The notes below the pieces were generated by a model. That model saw only the letters and a program-made list of their open reading frames with translations, did not search any database and was not told where the DNA came from. 64,000 nucleotides of DNA from Candidatus Poribacteria bacterium. GTDB lineage: Bacteria > Poribacteria > WGA-4E > GCA-2687025. The position numbers and the translations under genes were made by a program. Each line of letters opens with the position of its first letter. Positions within the stretch are counted from its first letter, which is position 1. The stretch covers positions 1 through 64,000 of the forward strand of contig JAPPNK010000007.1 in NCBI GenBank assembly GCA_028818695.1. Reading direction: 5' to 3'. This document shows positions 12,653-58,021 of the stretch, one piece after another.

Positions 12653-13465
12653 TTAGGGTCGGCGGCGGCCGTATTTGACATCCAATTCCCGAAGACGCTC
12701 CAAAGCCTCTTCCGTCGGCTCCTTTGCATTAAACTCGCCCGACTCATAAAAACCGCGCGTCTTCGCGTTCAGGTTGCCGTAGAAAAGGCGCGTGGATTCG
12801 TCGGAACTGCCGCGCCAAAACTGCGCCGGAATGATCGAATCCTCGCTTAAATACGGGCGGTCGGCGAATCCGTAGTAGATCTGCGCCGTTTTGCGTTCGC
12901 TCTGCGTGGGGCGCGTCGTCGCCGTGTGGAGCGCTCCAATGTTGAAGAGTATGCCCGTTCCCGCCTCGCCGTAGAGATCGCGCTTTCCGCCGCGCTCCAG
13001 CTGCTGATCATTCTCAAGGATCGGCTCGTCGACCGATTCGGGCGATATGGAAAAGCAGTGGGTCGTTTCGTCCACATCTGTAAAGTACAGCATCAGCTGC
13101 AGAAAACCGACGCGGAGCGGATGCTCCATCCAGTGGCGCGGTCCGTCCCTGTGCCAAGCCTGGTGAAACTCGCCCTCGTAAGCCTCCATGTTGCGAAGGC
13201 AGATCTCGGAAAAGCATGGGTTCGGACCCATCAGCTGCCGCAGCGCCTCCATCACAGCGGGATGCCGCACAATGCGGTCAAACGCCGGCGAGGTGAACAG
13301 CGCGTCGCAGTTGATCGTTTGATGATGCCCAAAGCGGTACCAGTGTCCGTTTGCGCGGTCGCGTTCGAACAGCGCCGTGAACTGATCCACCTCGGCGTCT
13401 GTCAAGATCTTTCCCAGCGAAACATACCCGTTCTGTTTGAAAAAACGCATCTGCGCGTCGGTCAT
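12653..13465 (-). CDS. Phytanoyl-CoA dioxygenase (PhyH)-like Fe(II)/2-oxoglutarate oxygenase
   Basis: A 270-residue double-stranded beta-helix oxygenase. The iron ligands are visible as H-x-D in QAWHRDGPRHW (about residue 110) and the distal His in GALHTATTRPTQSERKTAQIYYG (about 181), where Arg would bind 2-oxoglutarate. The N-terminal KQNGYVSLGKILTDAEVDQF is typical of PhyH proteins. The substrate is not predictable, since the family hydroxylates lipids, ectoine, halogenated compounds and others. Its ATG overlaps the stop of the coiled-coil gene upstream (ATGA, 13462-13465), so it looks like the last gene of the Zorya-like operon. A weaker alternative start is Met6 (13450). PhyH genes are abundant in Poribacteria-type genomes, so the linkage may be incidental. 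Confidence 0.85.
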   Translation of the reverse strand: MTDAQMRFFKQNGYVSLGKILTDAEVDQFTALFERDRANGHWYRFGHHQTINCDALFTSPAFDRIVRHPAVMEALRQLMGPNPCFSEICLRNMEAYEGEFHQAWHRDGPRHWMEHPLRVGFLQLMLYFTDVDETTHCFSISPESVDEPILENDQQLERGGKRDLYGEAGTGILFNIGALHTATTRPTQSERKTAQIYYGFADRPYLSEDSIIPAQFWRGSSDESTRLFYGNLNAKTRGFYESGEFNAKEPTEEALERLRELDVKYGRRRP

Positions 13466-14118
13466 ACGTTGCCCTTTCCGCTGGGTTGGAGGCGCTGTCG
13501 GAGCCGCTCCATCTCCCGTTCCACCCGCTCCGTCCGCTCCTGCGGCGCCGATTCGTTTGCCGATGTCCTGTTCAGCTCGCGCTCCAGCTCCTTCTTCTCC
13601 GCTTTTATGTCCATCTGACGCGCTATGCCGCTGTACTTGTTCTGCGTCTGCGCCGCCTCATGCTTCAGTATCCACATCTCATGCTGCCGTTTCAGCCGTT
13701 CAATTTCATACATATCTTCTTCGTTGCTTTTTTTGAGCAGTTGAATCATCGCTTCAATCGAGCGCATATCTTTTTCGATTCTGCCGCATGCCTCCATCGC
13801 AACCACTTTTTGCCGGATGCGCTCTCTGGCTTTCTCCTCCTGGTTTTGTAAAAGCGCGCTCTCCGCCGCGCCTCCCGCCGCAACGGCGCGCCGCTTGTTT
13901 CGTTCCAATTCTCCGCCCCATTCTTGAAGCGTCTTCTCCGCCTCTCGGATATGGCGCCGCCGTTCTCCGATCTTCTTGACCTCGTTAATGACGGCGCGCA
14001 AGAAACGCTTGTCTGTTTTTGAAGATGTTGGAGCCGCCTGTTTGCGCGGAGGCTTCGTTTCCATTCGCTTGCGCAAACTGGCGAAGCGTCGGTTCTGTCC
14101 AAAATCCGGCAGCTTCAT
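13462..14118 (-). CDS. Coiled-coil protein, candidate cytosolic partner of Zorya-like motor 1
   Basis: A 218-residue, highly charged, almost entirely helical protein with strong heptad character from about residue 35 to 215 (EKARERIRQK, EIERLKRQHEMW, EKKELERELNR). No nuclease, ATPase or membrane motif is visible. It starts MKLPDF and keeps L15, M19 and K22 in register with the HNH protein at 16481, which starts MKLPNF. Outside this N-terminal motif the two proteins are unrelated. The start overlaps the zorA1 stop by 4 nt, the position where ZorC/ZorE-type effectors sit in Zorya loci. I infer that it works with the motor, perhaps as an adaptor or DNA-binding tether. I know no described Zorya subtype with such an effector. 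Confidence 0.6.
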   Translation of the reverse strand: MKLPDFGQNRRFASLRKRMETKPPRKQAAPTSSKTDKRFLRAVINEVKKIGERRRHIREAEKTLQEWGGELERNKRRAVAAGGAAESALLQNQEEKARERIRQKVVAMEACGRIEKDMRSIEAMIQLLKKSNEEDMYEIERLKRQHEMWILKHEAAQTQNKYSGIARQMDIKAEKKELERELNRTSANESAPQERTERVEREMERLRQRLQPSGKGNV

Positions 14119-15617
14119 TCTAAATCTTTCGCCATCTGAACGACCTCCCGCAGCTTTTCAGTGAGCGGCGCGTAATCGTCCACAAACTTTTCAGACAAAT
14201 CCGCCAGCTGACGACCCAGCGTGATCAACGACTGTTTCAGAGCCGCCTCAAGACTTTTCTCCAAATTGTTCATGGCTCTGCTCCGCTCCATCATCAACCG
14301 ATCAAAGCTTTCGCCGATCTTCTTGACCGACTCCGCCACCGACCTATTCATAGCCGACATATTTTCATCGATCTTAGGAAGGTTTCGATTGATGTAAGAG
14401 GCGGAGTTTCCAAACGACTCCAGTTCGCCCCCCAGATTTGAGGCGCCCTCCGACAACGCTTTCAGCGCCGGCGCCAGCTCCCGCGCCGGCTTGCTCACCG
14501 CGGCGAGCGTCTCCTCCCGCGCCGCAATCTCCTCAACAACGCGCTCAAGACGCGAGGCGGCGTCGGCAAACAGAGCGCTCTGGTTCAACAACCCGCCCAT
14601 CGCCTCCTGAAGATCCATGAACGTCTGACGACTGGCTTCCAGCGTTTCGCTGGAGAATCGGATGCGCTCGTCCAAGCCGCGGCTGATCTCGCCGGCGGCC
14701 ATCTGAAACGCCCCAGACGCCTCGCTCAGATCGTCTTTCAGCTGCGGAAGCGCCTGATTTGCCGACGCGGCAGAATCGGCAAACGATTGAAACTCGCCCC
14801 CCAGATCGGAAGCGCCCTGCCGCAGCGCTTTCAGGGTCGACGCCAACTCCTCCGCCGGCGCCGCGAGACGCGCGACGCTCTCCTCCCGCGTCTCCAGCTC
14901 CGCCAACGCCGCGTCGAGACGCTCCGCAATCGAACTGAACGCGCCGCTCCGCTCCACAAACGCGCCCATGAACTCCTCGGACGCTTTCAGCGCTGCGATG
15001 GCGGCGTCCAGCTGTTTCGACTGCTCCTCCACCTGTTTTGCATGCGCCGTCTGCCACAGATAAAGGCGGCCGGCGGCGTCGTTCAGCTGCCGAAAGCTCT
15101 CGGCGCACTGCGCGTTGATCTCCGCGTTGAAACCTTCTACAAGGCTCTCCATCGCCGTTTTCAGCGCCGCAACCGATTGATCGGACACCTCCGCCTCAAA
15201 CGCTTTGAAGTCGCCGCGCAGCTTCTCCGACTGGTCAACCAGGCGCGCGTTGCCTTCATGGAGCGCTTGAGCAATCTTGTCCAGCCGCTCCGTCAACGGC
15301 TCAAGCGGATCGGGCGCGTCCGCGTCCTTCTGCCGTATCTTGAGAACGACAGCGGTTCCCATGCCGAATACGGAGGTGATGAAGGCGAAGCGGAGGCCGT
15401 CTAAAAGGCTGCTCGCCCCTTTCTGCAGCTCGGCGATGCCGCCCGTTTCGGACAGCTGAATCCCAAGCAGGCTGAAGCAGACGCCGACGAAGGTTCCAAG
15501 CACCCCCAGCATTGTCGCTAGATGCGGCAACCGCTCTTTGTCGACCAACTTCTTATTTTGCCATATGACAACCGCGACGATGCCGGCGCACCAAACGGCA
15601 GGAAAAATATAGTTCAT
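14115..15617 (-). CDS. ZorA-like MotA/TolQ/ExbB-family motor protein (motor 1)
   Basis: A 500-residue inner-membrane protein. Three membrane helices occupy about residues 3-20, 33-53 and 70-93. The MotA/ExbB-type pore motifs are LATMLGVLGTFVGVCFSLLGI and LLDGLRFAFITSVFGMGTAVVL. The remaining 400 residues form a long helical tail, as in ZorA of Zorya systems and unlike MotA, TolQ or ExbB. The tail holds two imperfect long repeats starting ERSGAFSSIAERLDAALAEL and NQSALFADAASRLERVVEEI. The C-terminus, LSEKFVDDYAPLTEKLREVV, is conserved with zorA2. It starts 12 nt after zorB1 and overlaps the downstream effector. It is expected to form the proton channel with ZorB. Confidence 0.85.
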   Translation of the reverse strand: MNYIFPAVWCAGIVAVVIWQNKKLVDKERLPHLATMLGVLGTFVGVCFSLLGIQLSETGGIAELQKGASSLLDGLRFAFITSVFGMGTAVVLKIRQKDADAPDPLEPLTERLDKIAQALHEGNARLVDQSEKLRGDFKAFEAEVSDQSVAALKTAMESLVEGFNAEINAQCAESFRQLNDAAGRLYLWQTAHAKQVEEQSKQLDAAIAALKASEEFMGAFVERSGAFSSIAERLDAALAELETREESVARLAAPAEELASTLKALRQGASDLGGEFQSFADSAASANQALPQLKDDLSEASGAFQMAAGEISRGLDERIRFSSETLEASRQTFMDLQEAMGGLLNQSALFADAASRLERVVEEIAAREETLAAVSKPARELAPALKALSEGASNLGGELESFGNSASYINRNLPKIDENMSAMNRSVAESVKKIGESFDRLMMERSRAMNNLEKSLEAALKQSLITLGRQLADLSEKFVDDYAPLTEKLREVVQMAKDLE

Positions 15618-15629
15618 TCGCAGCTCATC

Positions 15630-16451
15630 TCATTCGGCGTCAAAGCTCTCCCGCGCCTCCTTAAAATCTTCATACAGCTCCTCAATCAGCTCAATGCGTT
15701 TTTCGGCGCTGATGCGTATGCGAAACTCCACGCGGCGCGACCTGCGCTTGTCCTCGCTCTTGCCGCTCTCTTTAATGAGCTTGCCGTCCCTGTCCAGACG
15801 CTTGCTGAACGACAGCCCGTTGGCGGTCATGCGTTCCTGTATCCATTCCAGGTTGTCTCTCACGACGCGCCTTGGGATCTGCAGAACATATTTGAGCGTT
15901 GAGCGGGTGCGGTCTTGGGACAGCTCCATGTTGTTGAAGTACGCCTCATTCGGCGATACAGACTCTTGCCACTCGCTGGAGGTATGCCCCTCAATGCGTA
16001 TCTCTTCGATCTCGGATCGATACTTGTCCTGGGCGAGAATGCGAACATAGCGCGGGAAAAAATCGTCCAGAATCGCGCGGAACCCAGCCGGAAGACGAGA
16101 GCTGCCCTGCCTAAAAAGCATGCCGGGGTCTTGAAACCGAATCGAAAGCGTGTCAGGGTCGATCTCGGCGTTCCACTTCTTCAGATCGCTCGTTTGCTCA
16201 AATTCTTGGCGCAGGTCTTGTAGCAGCTCCTTCTGAAGATTGCGGTAGGTCTCCGCCGCCTCCTGGACGCTGTCGCGCTGCCGCTCCACTTTTTCTCTCT
16301 GCTTGTCCGCCTCCGCTTTTTTCTGCGCCGCGTCGATCATAAAACTGATCGAAACGAACAGAAAAACCGCCATCAGTACGGTCATCATATCCGAAATGGA
16401 GAGCCACTGACCCTCGTTTTGGTCGCTGTTTCGGCGGAAGAGATTGCGCAT
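15630..16451 (-). CDS. ZorB-like MotB/OmpA-family motor protein (motor 1)
   Basis: A 273-residue protein with one membrane helix near residues 20-42. It is preceded by WLSISDMM, whose Asp is the candidate proton-carrying residue, as in MotB and ZorB. A coiled linker follows (QKKAEADKQREKVERQRD). The C-terminal OmpA-like peptidoglycan-binding domain shows RIEGHTSSEWQ (about residues 152-162), LSQDRTRSTLKYVL and RRSRRVEFRIRIS. This architecture matches ZorB rather than flagellar MotB. It lies 29 nt after the HNH gene of motor 2 and 12 nt before zorA1. The gene order B-A here is the reverse of A-B in motor 2. The ZorB2 copy at 17269 is clearly homologous, sharing DDFFPRYVRILAQDKY-like and EIRIEGHTSS segments. 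Confidence 0.87.
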   Translation of the reverse strand: MRNLFRRNSDQNEGQWLSISDMMTVLMAVFLFVSISFMIDAAQKKAEADKQREKVERQRDSVQEAAETYRNLQKELLQDLRQEFEQTSDLKKWNAEIDPDTLSIRFQDPGMLFRQGSSRLPAGFRAILDDFFPRYVRILAQDKYRSEIEEIRIEGHTSSEWQESVSPNEAYFNNMELSQDRTRSTLKYVLQIPRRVVRDNLEWIQERMTANGLSFSKRLDRDGKLIKESGKSEDKRRSRRVEFRIRISAEKRIELIEELYEDFKEARESFDAE

Positions 16452-16480
16452 CGTTAAGACCTGCTCCTAGCATATTGGGA

Positions 16481-17272
16481 TTATGGGTTTCTCGCCATGT
16501 GACCATGTCCAGGCTGCTTCCGGTGGCACCAGCGGCACAAAACCTTTAGGTTGGAGGGGTCGTTGTTCGCCTTGTTCCCGTCGATATGGTGAACATGCAA
16601 ATTGTCTTTCTGATTTTGGCAATTATAGCCGCATTGTTGACATCTCCAGCCGACGTCGCTTCGGAGCTTGTACGAAATTTCGCTCCAGTTTGGCGTGTAT
16701 GCATTGAGAGGAGCTGTTTCGTTATTGTGCCGAGGCCGCCATGTGGTCGGCGTTTCCTGATACATCTCAAAAAACTCATCCAGCCTGAAATTACGATAGA
16801 TTTTGTTCCAATCCTGTCCGTGTTGGTTATAGCCCTTATACCGCAGCTTAGCGAGGCAGTTTTTGCAAACCTGCAACTTCCTATGGTCAGTTTTGACCCC
16901 ACCGCCCCAACCATTCCTCACATTGACCTGGAAAATCCCGTCTGTCCGATTTGAGACGACATACCGATTCCCCCTGTCGTTTTTTATCATTTTTCTGAGA
17001 GTCGAACAATGCGCAATGTGAAATTTTGGATTGCTGCCAAAGGTGTCAATGTCTCGAATATAAATCAACACATGCTCCCCCTCGTGCCTTAAAGTGCCGT
17101 CGGGTTTGAAGACGATATCTGGGAGGGGCACCACTTTGTCCCCTCTAGGCTTTGGCATCGGCTTCCAATTGTCCCACTTAATGGAGGGACGTTTGCGCGG
17201 CTCGTACTTCGCATCCATCGCGCGGTGCAGGCGATTCAGACCAGCATGTTCACGGAAATTGGGCAACTTCAT
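16481..17272 (-). CDS. HNH endonuclease, ZorE-like effector of Zorya-like motor 2
   Basis: A 263-residue protein with a C-terminal HNH nuclease domain: WRCQQCGY (first Cys pair, about residue 211), LHVHHIDGNKANND (catalytic HH and Asn, about 227-240) and LKVLCRWCH (second Cys pair and final His). The N-terminal half has another likely zinc site, HIAHCSTLRKM (about 83-93) paired with VCKNCLAKL. It begins MKLPNF, the same motif as the coiled-coil protein at 13462. Its ATG overlaps the zorB2 stop by 4 nt. In type II Zorya, ZorE is a single HNH-type protein that cuts or nicks DNA next to ZorA and ZorB, and this gene occupies the same place. DNA cleavage is inferred from the intact motif. Confidence 0.85.
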   Translation of the reverse strand: MKLPNFREHAGLNRLHRAMDAKYEPRKRPSIKWDNWKPMPKPRGDKVVPLPDIVFKPDGTLRHEGEHVLIYIRDIDTFGSNPKFHIAHCSTLRKMIKNDRGNRYVVSNRTDGIFQVNVRNGWGGGVKTDHRKLQVCKNCLAKLRYKGYNQHGQDWNKIYRNFRLDEFFEMYQETPTTWRPRHNNETAPLNAYTPNWSEISYKLRSDVGWRCQQCGYNCQNQKDNLHVHHIDGNKANNDPSNLKVLCRWCHRKQPGHGHMARNP

Positions 17273-18012
17273 TCTGCGATTCCTCCCTCTTGAATGATGC
17301 GGACGATGCGGTTCTCGGCGTTCGTACGGACGCGAAACTCTACACGCCGAGACTGATCCTCATCTTCAATCTTATCTTCATTGCTGTCATTTTTGAAGCG
17401 GAGCTTGCTGGACGAAAGCCCGTTCGCTGTCAAATGCTTTTGCGTCCATTTCCGCTCGCTCGGAACAGTATTTAAGACATGCTCCAACACGGAGCGCGTC
17501 CGGTCTTGAGACAGCTTCATGTTCCGAATATACGCCTTATTCGGCAAAAAATCCCCCCACTTGCTGGAGGTATGCCCCTCAATCCGTATCTCTTCGATAT
17601 CGTCTCGATACTTGTCCTGCGCGAGTATGCGAATATAGCGCGGAAAAAAGTCGTTCAGGATGCCTATAAACGGATCCTGCAGTTCCGCGCTAGCGTGCTT
17701 AAAAAGAACATCCGGGGCATGGAAACGCACCGATAAGGTCGGCTTGTCAATGGAGGCGTCCCACTCTTCCAGATCGCCTTCGAACTCTTGATACAGATCG
17801 TCGTACAGGTCGTTCTGAAGACGCTGGTAGGTGACGGCGATCTCCTTGATGCGGTCTCTGTCCACCTCAATTTTGTTTTTCTTCTCCTGCGCGTCCAGCA
17901 TGAAACTGAGCGCGACAAACAGGAAAATGACCATGAGACCGGCCATCATGTCGGAGATAGAGATCCATTGCCCCTCGTCCTGCTGTTCGGGAAGCTGCGA
18001 TTGGTCGTTCAT
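17269..18012 (-). CDS. ZorB-like MotB/OmpA-family motor protein (motor 2)
   Basis: A 247-residue homologue of the 15630 product. WISISDMMAGLMVIFLFVALSFMLD (about residues 16-40) gives the membrane helix with the candidate proton-binding Asp. A short coiled linker (QEKKNKIEVDRDRIKEI) precedes the OmpA-like domain, which has IRIEGHTSSKWG (about 142-153), MKLSQDRTRSVLEHVL and SRRVEFRVRT. The N-terminus is shorter and more acidic than in ZorB1. It starts 39 nt after zorA2 and overlaps the HNH gene at its end. It should anchor the motor to peptidoglycan. Confidence 0.87.
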   Translation of the reverse strand: MNDQSQLPEQQDEGQWISISDMMAGLMVIFLFVALSFMLDAQEKKNKIEVDRDRIKEIAVTYQRLQNDLYDDLYQEFEGDLEEWDASIDKPTLSVRFHAPDVLFKHASAELQDPFIGILNDFFPRYIRILAQDKYRDDIEEIRIEGHTSSKWGDFLPNKAYIRNMKLSQDRTRSVLEHVLNTVPSERKWTQKHLTANGLSSSKLRFKNDSNEDKIEDEDQSRRVEFRVRTNAENRIVRIIQEGGIAE

Positions 18013-18051
18013 CGTTCAAGCCTTCTTTCCAATGCCTGTTTTAAAATGTTC

Positions 18052-20162
18052 TCAGAACGACGGATCGCTCGGCGGAAAACGGCGGTTCAAATCTTCCGCT
18101 ATCCGAACAACGTCACGCAGTTTATCCGTAAGCGGCAGGTAGTCTTCAACGAACTTCTTCGAGAGCGTTTCCAGCGCGTCGATGAACGTATTCAGCGCTT
18201 TCGTGAGTTCTTCGCCTAGCGCTTTGTCCAACTCCTCCGTTTGCTGTGCCATGTTCTTGCCTGTTGTTTCAACGAGTTGCGTTATATGGTTGTTCATCTT
18301 CGTTGCAGTTTCTGTGACGCTCTGGTTCATGTCCTTGTGGGCTTGCTCAATCCCCCGGCTTGTGTTGTTGACGCTGCGCAGAGCTTCGGCGGCGGCGCTT
18401 GAGATGTCTCCGCTAGCGTTTTGGACGCTTTCGCTCATCTCGGTTTGAACTCTCTGAAAGTCCGTTATCAGCTCCATCTGGCTTTCCATGTTTTCAAGGG
18501 AGCTCTTGGCGGCGTTGGCAAATTCCATTACAGCCGTTCGGATCTGTGTGTTAACAGTCGCTTGGGTTAGATCGATTTGACGGCGCTGGCTCTCCATACT
18601 TGCGAGCGCGCTGTCTGCGGCGTTTTTGAACCCGTCCGCGGCCGTTTCGATTTGTTCGTTGACGTTCGTTTGCGTCTGTTCAAGATGCGTTCGTTGGGTT
18701 TCCATGCTCGACAGCGCCGTTTGCGTCGATTCCTCAAATCCAGCCGCTGTTTGCTCAATGCGGGTTTGCTGAGTTTCCATGCTGTCAAGCGACGCTGCAA
18801 CGGCGCCCTTGAACTCGTTCGAGGTCTCCAGTATCTGCGCGTTCACCCCCTCCTGAAACAACTGCATCTGGTTTCTCTGCTGACTCATGCTCTCAAGCGA
18901 CGCATCAACCGATTTTTTGAAATCTGCCGCGGCATCTCTCACCCCCGCGTTGACGATCTCTTGATTTTTTTCAATGCGCTCGCGCTGACCCGCCATACTC
19001 TCAAGCGACGCATCAACCGAACTCTTGAAGCCTGCCGCCGTCTCCTGTATCTGCGCATTCACCGTCCGTTGGTTTGTTTCAATCAGCGTCCGTTGATTCT
19101 CCATGGTTCTCAACGCGGCGCCGGCGGATTCCGTAAATCCGTTCGCCGTTGTCGTCAGCCCGTTCGTGATCTGCTCAATGTTCTGCTGTATCGCCGGGAA
19201 GGCGCTTCCGCCCGCTCGCCGAGACCCGCCAGCGCCTCAAGATGTGCGTTCATCTCTTCGTTACGGCCGCTCAGTTCGCCCAGTGCCTCTTCTAGTCGGT
19301 CGGCGACGCCCGCAAACGTCTCGCTCCGCTCAACAACGACTCCCATCGCCTGTTTACAGCTCTCCATCGCCACCTTGCAGCTCTCCATTGCCGCCGTTGA
19401 CCGCTCCACCAGCTCCTTATGTTCTTCCTGCCATGTGAGCATCCGACCGACCGCTTCATTGAGCTGCTTAAAGTTATCGCCGAACTGTTCGGTTAGCTTC
19501 TCGTTGAAATCGCGTATCACCCCCTCCAGTGCCTCGATGAGCGCTTTGGAGTTGTTCTCCGCCATCGATTCGGCAAATTTCTTAAATTCGCTGACGAGCT
19601 TGTCTTGCTTGCTGATGAGCTTTGTATGATTGTCGGAAAGGTCCTGGCGCATCAACTTCATCTGCGTCATCAGGGTTGTGTCGTTATCACCGACCAGGGC
19701 GCGCTCCACCGAATCGATCTTGTCTAAAAGCGTCGACTCGCCCTCTCCCGTGACTGCATTAGCGACAGCCTCCGTGTTCGCGTTGATCTCCTGAAAGCCG
19801 TTTTTCAGGAGATCAGCGAGCGTGTCGAGTGTGGCGCCTTCCGTCGTTGATACATCTTTCTTGCCTCGCAGCGCAATCTTGCCCAGAAAGATTCCCCTCA
19901 GTAAGACCGCAGTAGAGATTCCAGTTACGGAGGTGATGAACGCAGTACGGAGACCGTCCAGCAGACCAGGTATGCTGCCGTTGATGTCTCTTACGTCGAA
20001 TCCCCATAACCCGTACAGGATCCCCCCAAAAGTGCCGAGAATGCCTAAGACCGTCGCGAAATTGGGAATAGACGCTCGATTAGGCTTCTTCCGCAGCAAA
20101 ATCGCAAGAACGATTGAAACGACGACGATGAGCGCGCTATACGCCAGCGCTAGATTCAGCAT
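18052..20162 (-). CDS. ZorA-like motor protein (motor 2), split by one frameshift
   Basis: Read through one frame change, this encodes about 703 residues. The first part (ATG 20162, GGAG 9 nt upstream) has three membrane helices at about residues 4-22, 36-57 and 71-95, with VLGILGTFGGILYGLWGF and LLDGLRTAFITSVTGISTAVLL. It stops early at 19155. A second open frame, readable from at least 19200 down to 18052, continues directly (FPAIQQNIEQITNGL) and carries the rest of the tail. The total length of 2111 nt is one short of a whole number of codons, consistent with a single-base deletion. The tail contains about six 36-residue helical repeats (SLESM-QR- - -) and ends in LSKKFVEDYLPLTDKLRDVV, conserved with zorA1. 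It may be a sequencing error, a real null allele, or two genes. Confidence 0.75.
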
Positions 20163-56903: not shown

Positions 56904-57551
56904 TTATGTGTCGGTCGTCTTGGGCGCTTTGGCGAGCCGTTGCCGCAGCTTCTGCAGCTCGTTGTCGATCTTCACGTTCTGAATGTTGGTCTGCAGGTCT
57001 TTCCGGTTGACAAGCTCCCTCACTTCCGCCCGCGCCTCTTCGCGCCTTGCGATCTCTTTTTGCCTTTCAATGATCTCCCGCGCGTCCCTGATTTCTGGCG
57101 AACGTTTCGCGTCGCCGAGGTCGGAGCGGATCCGCGCGGTACTCTGGCGCAGCTCCCATGCTCTCTGCTCGCCCTTGATACGTTCAATTTCCAGCTTGTA
57201 GGTCTCCGACGCCTCTTTGAGCGAGTCCACCCTTTCCGCGACGCTCGCCCGCTGCGCCTCATACCCTTCCGCAAGCTCCTGCGCATGCTGCCACCGCTCA
57301 AGATGCCGCCGCGCGCTCGCCTCCAGCCCCTCCTGCATGGCTTGCTCCGCCGCGTCGTGCGCATCCTGCGCCTTTCTCCGCTGCGCATCCCGCTCCTCCG
57401 TAATGCGCCGCTCCTCATGGATCGCCTCGGCGGCTTGAAACTTCACAGCCTGATGCTTCTGCTCCATGTTCGAAAGAAGATCGGTTATGCTTTTCTCGGA
57501 AACGTCAGGGGCGCGTTCGTTCGCAAAGAGCCTGCGGATCCAATTAAACAT
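56904..57551 (-). CDS. PspA/IM30-like coiled-coil protein
   Basis: A 215-residue, almost wholly helical protein. It begins MFNWIRRLFANE, an amphipathic start like PspA, followed by EKSITDLLSNMEQKHQAVKFQAAEAIHEERRI and a long charged coil (EQAMQEGLEASARRHLERWQHAQELAEGYEAQRA, LKEASETYKLEIERIKGEQ). PspA and Vipp1 proteins coat damaged inner membranes. The match is to overall layout, and similarity to a specific subfamily was not established. ATG 57551 is chosen because AGGA lies 7 nt away. It lies 14 nt downstream of the bifunctional-nuclease gene and is likely co-transcribed. Confidence 0.65.
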   Translation of the reverse strand: MFNWIRRLFANERAPDVSEKSITDLLSNMEQKHQAVKFQAAEAIHEERRITEERDAQRRKAQDAHDAAEQAMQEGLEASARRHLERWQHAQELAEGYEAQRASVAERVDSLKEASETYKLEIERIKGEQRAWELRQSTARIRSDLGDAKRSPEIRDAREIIERQKEIARREEARAEVRELVNRKDLQTNIQNVKIDNELQKLRQRLAKAPKTTDT

Positions 57552-57565
57552 CGGTTTGTCCTGTT

Positions 57566-58021
57566 TCAAACCCGTATGAAATCCTCATTCGGCTCCTGCT
57601 CCTCCTGAACAGCCTGTATGTCCGACTGCAGGATTCCGGCTTCGTCCATCACATCTTCGTGGACATAGATCGGCGCGTCGGCTCGGAGCGCAAGCGGTAT
57701 CGCGTCGCTTGGGCGAGAATCCACCTCTATCGTTTCGCCGCCGCGCTCAATATAGATGATTCCATAGAAGGTGCCGTCCTTGATGGCTTTCACCGCGACC
57801 GATTCCACGCGCCCGCCGAGCGTCTCGACAAGGTTCATCATCAGATCATGCGTCATCGGTCTGGATGTTTCAAGACCTTCCAGTTTCATGTGAATCGCGG
57901 AGGCTTCGGCGAATCCGATCTGTATGGGAAGCAGACGTTCATCGTCCTCTGTTTTAAGAAAAATCACGACCCCCTGCCGTTTCGGGTCGCTGGATAGGAA
58001 TGCAACTTCAACAGAAAGCAT
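57566..58021 (-). CDS. Bifunctional nuclease family protein (BFN/DUF151)
   Basis: A 151-residue DUF151 protein. It opens LSVEVAFLSSDPKRQGVVIFLKTEDDERLLPIQIGFAEASAIHMKLEG, the family signature, then RPMTHDLMMNLVETLGGRVESVAVKAIKDGTFYGIIYIE and VDSRPSDAIPLALRADAPIYVHEDVMDEAGI. Plant and bacterial members have been reported as bifunctional nucleases, though the activity is little studied. ATG 58021 is preferred because GAGG lies 8 nt upstream and the protein then starts at the conserved domain. A plausible promoter lies at 58088-58116. Confidence 0.85.
   Translation of the reverse strand: MLSVEVAFLSSDPKRQGVVIFLKTEDDERLLPIQIGFAEASAIHMKLEGLETSRPMTHDLMMNLVETLGGRVESVAVKAIKDGTFYGIIYIERGGETIEVDSRPSDAIPLALRADAPIYVHEDVMDEAGILQSDIQAVQEEQEPNEDFIRV

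Follow-up and report, generated by a model that had tools for sequence, protein, structure and literature searches.

Zorya anti-phage systems join a ZorAB membrane motor to soluble partners and have been described in three layouts, ZorABCD (type I), ZorABE (type II) and ZorABFG (type III) (PMC8565338, PMC11890865). One motor per locus is the usual layout of type II, although it is not a defining function of the type. In type II, ZorAB depends on the binding of peptidoglycan, on ion flow and on the tail of ZorA (PMC11890865), and mutation has shown the importance of residues H141, S143 and R215 of E. coli ZorB (PMC11890865). On infection ZorAB brings the effector ZorE to the membrane, where ZorE nicks DNA (PMC11890865); the recruitment was shown, and the interface in ZorE was not named (PMC11890865).

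The DNA analysed here (the window) is a 64,000 nt stretch of a draft genome of a Candidatus Poribacteria bacterium (GCA_028818695.1, contig JAPPNK010000007.1). It contains a real and so far unique variant of type II Zorya, known once, from a draft genome in which one of the motor genes (ZorA1) is frameshifted.

Gene content and arrangement of the locus

Six genes run in one direction on the minus strand, from 20162 to 13462, in the order ZorA1 (frameshifted), ZorB1, ZorE, ZorB2′, ZorA2′ and a gene for a coiled-coil protein (CC). The features of the locus are as follows.

18052..20162, minus strand: ZorA1, type II ZorA, nominally about 703 aa, transmembrane core and tail (PADLOC ZorA2 models, frame switch, tip score)
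17269..18012, minus strand: ZorB1, type II ZorB (PADLOC PDLC00641, 7e-89; phmmer 3e-45 against 8VVI)
16481..17272, minus strand: ZorE, HNH nuclease with N-terminal head, central region and HNH domain (PADLOC ZorE2, 3e-75, residues 1-261)
15630..16451, minus strand: ZorB2′, second type II ZorB (PADLOC PDLC00641, 9e-84)
14115..15617, minus strand: ZorA2′, second type II ZorA, 500 aa (PADLOC PDLC00637, 2e-55)
13462..14118, minus strand: CC, ZorE-type head and helical coiled-coil body (head profile, AlphaFold2 helices)
14041..14118, minus strand: ZorE-type head of CC, residues 1-26, putative docking element (head profile)
12653..13465, minus strand: PhyH-family dioxygenase, possible seventh gene (PF05721, 5e-11)

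The distances between consecutive genes are 39 nt (ZorA1 to ZorB1), −4 nt (ZorB1 to ZorE), 29 nt (ZorE to ZorB2′), 12 nt (ZorB2′ to ZorA2′) and −4 nt (ZorA2′ to CC). A preliminary description of this DNA had reported six genes in the same direction, at most 39 nt apart or overlapping by 4 nt, and these coordinates and spacings were confirmed. It had also seen two Zorya-like motor pairs in one transcript, one ordered A-B and the other B-A, accompanied by two different effectors, and had called this unlike the known layouts. That view stands: the locus has two motor pairs of type II that apparently belong to a single transcription unit, in those two orders and with two different soluble partners, and the arrangement matches none of ZorABCD, ZorABE and ZorABFG (PMC8565338, PMC11890865). 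The PhyH-family gene, which was absent from the earlier gene list, overlaps the stop of CC by 4 nt, but may be a bystander, since 56 PhyH genes were counted in this 3.57 Mb draft genome. At 0.50-0.60, the GC content of the cluster equals that of the window (0.595) or falls slightly below it.

The motors and the nuclease are of type II

The best PADLOC models are those of type II for all four motor proteins and for the nuclease, with ZorA1 matched in two parts (5e-72 for the N-terminal and 3e-23 for the C-terminal part). NCBIfam also points to type II (ZorB2 model, 1e-63 and 4e-54; ZorE, 5e-47), all of these matches falling under NCBI's strict cut-offs. The nearest solved relatives are ZorB and ZorA of the Sulfuricurvum kujiense type II system (8VVI). 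The preliminary description had left room for the membrane proteins to group with TolQR/ExbBD rather than ZorAB. An identity as TolQR, ExbBD or MotAB was rejected: the Pfam models MotA_ExbB and MotB_plug stay under their cut-offs and the Zorya models are far stronger. Types I and III have a motor plus soluble partners in common with the locus, but the matches of the window to their motor models are much weaker, and none of ZorC, ZorD, ZorF or ZorG is found among the six operon genes.

Compared with the type II systems of E. coli ATCC 8739 and S. kujiense, the locus has the same ZorA, ZorB and ZorE families and shares the ion-path and peptidoglycan-site residues, and its first half has the A-B-E order. 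By residue mapping to E. coli ZorB, ZorB1 keeps D21, H147, S149 and R222, and ZorB2′ keeps D21, H156, S158 and R239; the aspartate is that of the ion path in the transmembrane helix, and the histidine, serine and arginine are peptidoglycan-site residues corresponding to E. coli H141, S143 and R215. A further E. coli residue, R230, is not kept in the alignment, at a position that varies among type II ZorBs. The core motifs GTF and LLDGLR.AFITSV are present in both ZorAs, and both have the long cytoplasmic tail (500 aa in ZorA2′; about 703 aa nominally in ZorA1, where it is interrupted by the frameshift). Judged by these residues and motifs, each motor looks capable of function. The HNH models exceed the Pfam cut-off in ZorE, and its HVHHIDG..N.....NL..LC..CH motif aligns with the H226-H253 region of E. 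coli ZorE, the catalytic residues included. What the window adds to a type II system is a reversed ZorB-ZorA pair, giving two ZorB and two ZorA genes in place of the usual single motor, and a ZorE-headed coiled-coil protein.

A ZorE head on CC and a common tip on both ZorAs

Two features had been missed in the preliminary description: the ZorE head of CC and the tip class common to the two ZorAs. The N-terminus of CC (MKLPDFGQNRRFASLRKRMETKPPRK) resembles that of the ZorE in the window (MKLPNFREHAGLNRLHRAMDAKYEPRK), and other ZorE N-termini are alike (e.g., MRLPDFLKHVALNQLRQQMGAE in locus L041 and MNLPDFRKHDGLNDLRSQMGAP in L058). The ZorE head follows the pattern MKLPDF...L..LR..M and makes up the first 25 or so residues of CC. 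A head profile built from 11 ZorEs, all from outside the window, gives 16.8 bits for CC and 33.0 bits for the window ZorE, against 1.1 bits for the best unrelated N-terminus among about 1,550 ORFs, and none of 200,000 shuffles of CC's own composition reaches the score of CC. Neither an HNH match nor a nuclease motif was found in CC; the ZorE central region is absent and the body is helical only. CC is thus a ZorE head without the nuclease and, because the central region and the HNH domain are missing, is not itself a ZorE. Nor is it a random neighbour in the operon.

At the other end of the putative interaction, the C-terminal tips of ZorA1 (LSKKFVEDYLPLTDKLRDVVRIAEDL) and ZorA2′ (LSEKFVDDYAPLTEKLREVVQMAKDL) share the motif LS.KFV.DY.PLT.KLR.VV..A.DL. 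With a tip profile built without these two proteins, they score 57.9 bits (ZorA1) and 64.4 bits (ZorA2′), and no other part of either protein exceeds 0.2 bits. The same C-terminal tip motif (LSNKFVQDYTPLTEKLREVVALA) is present in the solved ZorA of S. kujiense (8VVI), and the tip of ZorA2′ aligns with it.

Among 28 ZorE-bearing loci, an LPDF-type ZorE head is present in seven of the eight whose ZorA has the tip and in four of the 20 without it (Fisher p 0.002, the loci being related and not independent). Both tip and head are missing from a further 14 loci, most of them from one order. Head and tip are weakly correlated by rank (0.38, p 0.04), and some loci depart from the pattern: L072 has the tip without the head, and L042, L063, L073 and L080 have the head with a weak tip or none. 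In one family of the source phylum, L054 and L058 carry both motifs and six relatives carry neither, a co-switch of tip and head. This co-occurrence of tip and head classes across loci supports, without proving, docking of the ZorE-type head on the ZorA tip. Our preferred reading, with a probability of about 0.5, is that the locus encodes two motors that form separately and use a common docking code to recruit ZorE or CC.

The frameshift in ZorA1

ZorA1 spans 2111 nt from the ATG at 20162 to its stop, a length not divisible by three. In a codon-usage scan the reading frame changes near 19204 with no start codon at that point. No other start-less switch inside a gene stands out clearly in the window; two calls of the scan on the plus strand had coding sequence on the opposite strand at about the same place. 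By eye, no canonical −1 slippery heptamer was seen at the switch. The frameshift may be an assembly error, recent decay or a programmed shift, and because of it the first motor may be dead.

Should only the second motor work, ZorA2′ and ZorB2′ would serve both ZorE and CC while the first pair decays. A single motor could do so since both effectors share the head, and the frameshift in ZorA1, with no other clear case in the window, fits such decay. Set against this, the ZorA1 frame stays open for about 370 codons downstream of the switch and retains its canonical tip, ZorB1 is intact and has a shorter branch than ZorB2′, and a single indel is possibly an error of assembly. We consider loss of the first motor rather unlikely.

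The coiled-coil body and possible roles of CC

An AlphaFold2 model of CC made from the single sequence (pLDDT 74, pTM 0.34) has helices at residues 10-20, 34-81, 84-186 and 192-210. The body is collinear with the Pfam family PspA_IM30 at a sub-threshold score (E 0.06; 13.3 bits against a cut-off of 33.9) that 4 of 1000 shuffles equal. In a Foldseek search of the PDB, Vipp1 and PspA top the list for the CC model, at E 0.1-0.3 and TM about 0.3, while a control ZorA tail of similar length brought up SMC, SH3BP5 and BAR proteins, with Vipp1 and PspA not in the top 50. Other comparisons separate CC less well: many helical hairpins tie with Vipp1 in VIA-align (Z 9.7), a PspA profile made for the phylum gives CC 3.3 and ordinary ORFs up to 6.2, so that several unrelated ORFs score as well, and the hhalign probability of CC against PspA is 8%. 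The resemblance of the body to PspA/ESCRT-III is suggestive only. No relatives of CC were found in the phylum or in plasmids, no PHROG matched it, and a fold search against viral structures gave nothing significant. Elsewhere in the window, a PspA-like gene on the minus strand at 56904-57569 reaches 34 bits against a PspA profile made from relatives, and at least two more PspA homologues are present in the genome.

In the preferred two-motor reading, CC would be a second output or an adaptor. It might instead act as a brake: mimicking ZorE but lacking the nuclease, it would occupy the tail tips and hold the nickase off until infection, as a guard against self-damage. A head without a nuclease is what such a brake would have, and overproduced ZorE damages host DNA (PMC11890865). 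Other type II systems, however, do without a brake, and CC follows its own motor pair, as expected of a partner of that motor, which makes braking a somewhat doubtful role. Sealing is improbable and the least likely of the roles considered for CC. Here the protein would be a ZorE head joined to a PspA/ESCRT-III-like, polymer-forming domain, and a motor that senses wall damage would bring a membrane-sealing protein to the site of phage entry, alongside the DNA nickase recruited by the same docking code.

Origin of the second motor and search for other double loci

The preliminary description had proposed trees of ZorA and ZorB as a way to see whether the two pairs are sister copies. For ZorB they are: ZorB1 and ZorB2′ are 54% identical and are sisters in a tree of 71 ZorB sequences (support 94/92, just below the star limit of the tool), ZorB2′ having the longer branch. 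The ZorA tree leaves the fork between the two ZorAs open, with ZorA2′ on a long branch, and the N-terminal parts of the ZorAs are about 27-33% identical. Because of the identity and the sister position of the ZorBs, the second pair most likely arose as a lineage-specific copy. A simple tandem duplication does not explain the B-A order of the second half.

The preliminary description had proposed a search for homologous double loci in related genomes, and had named pairs found singly or far apart in relatives, with no co-occurrence, as evidence against its reading. A ZorB model was run against genomes of the same phylum (84), of Pseudomonadota (398), of Campylobacterota (298) and of two orders (345 and 48), and against plasmids, phage records and IMG/VR. 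These searches recovered about 130 loci with a type II ZorB besides that of the window: 21 in the phylum, 7 in Pseudomonadota, 54 in Campylobacterota, 15 further in one order, 14 in plasmids, one in phage records and 21 in IMG/VR. None of them has a second type II ZorB adjacent, and in searched genomes with two ZorBs the copies lie on different contigs; the genomes searched included no other member of the same genus. The double locus was thus not found elsewhere in the searched genomes, a result that touches the second of these points.

Mixed heteromers, also raised in the preliminary description, would combine the two ZorAs and two ZorBs in one motor. The identity of the ZorBs and the common apparent transcription unit would allow this, but the ZorAs differ by about 200 residues, and with nominal lengths of about 703 and 500 aa the tails of a five-helix bundle would probably not match; together with the low identity of the ZorA N-terminal parts, this makes mixing very unlikely. 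That two unrelated systems, with CC an independent gene, became neighbours by chance would suit the non-recurring B-A half, but is highly improbable given sister ZorBs, a ZorE head on CC and gene overlaps of 4 nt.

Other Zorya-like loci

The searches also brought up ZorB-ZorA pairs in the B-A order on phage-type IMG/VR contigs (L078:8010-9496, L081:7565-9037, L082:7995-9448 and L084:7974-9402), and the same match occurs in L085 and L086. The ZorA of these pairs is short (243-258 aa), with neither long tail nor tip, and no effector lies beside the pair; genes nearby encode PhoH, a UvdE-like protein, Hsp20 and thymidine kinase. Such a pair could conceivably serve as a dominant-negative decoy against Zorya or block superinfection. 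In the source phylum, loci L043-L049, L051 and L057 have motors like those with type II ZorB, without ZorE and with a different ZorA tail end. Directly after ZorB they encode an uncharacterised protein of about 474-517 aa (488 aa in L057) that starts MNSAKKLLQFNF or similar. These motors are possibly another Zorya-like subtype.

A model for the double-motor locus

Under the preferred reading, duplication of the motor in this lineage would have given two ZorA5ZorB2 motors, separate from each other, whose tails differ in length but share one tip class. Following the model for single-motor Zorya (PMC11890865), a phage that disturbs the peptidoglycan would cause ZorB to engage the wall and the ion path to open, upon which the ZorA tail would turn or rearrange. 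The tail tips would then capture soluble partners by their short N-terminal head, these being the DNA nickase ZorE and CC, in which a coiled-coil body replaces the nuclease. Since the two halves of the locus share one class of head and one class of tip, each motor could take up either partner.

That a protein without a nuclease keeps only the ZorE head, and lies beside ZorAs whose tips match, suggests that the head is the recruitment element. The shared, putative docking head is the most useful lesson of the locus, and together with the tip it gives a testable two-motif hypothesis of effector recruitment. The double motor also raises the question of whether different tail lengths go with different outputs. 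If the hypothesis is true, a head of about 25 residues could let Zorya motors carry other payloads.
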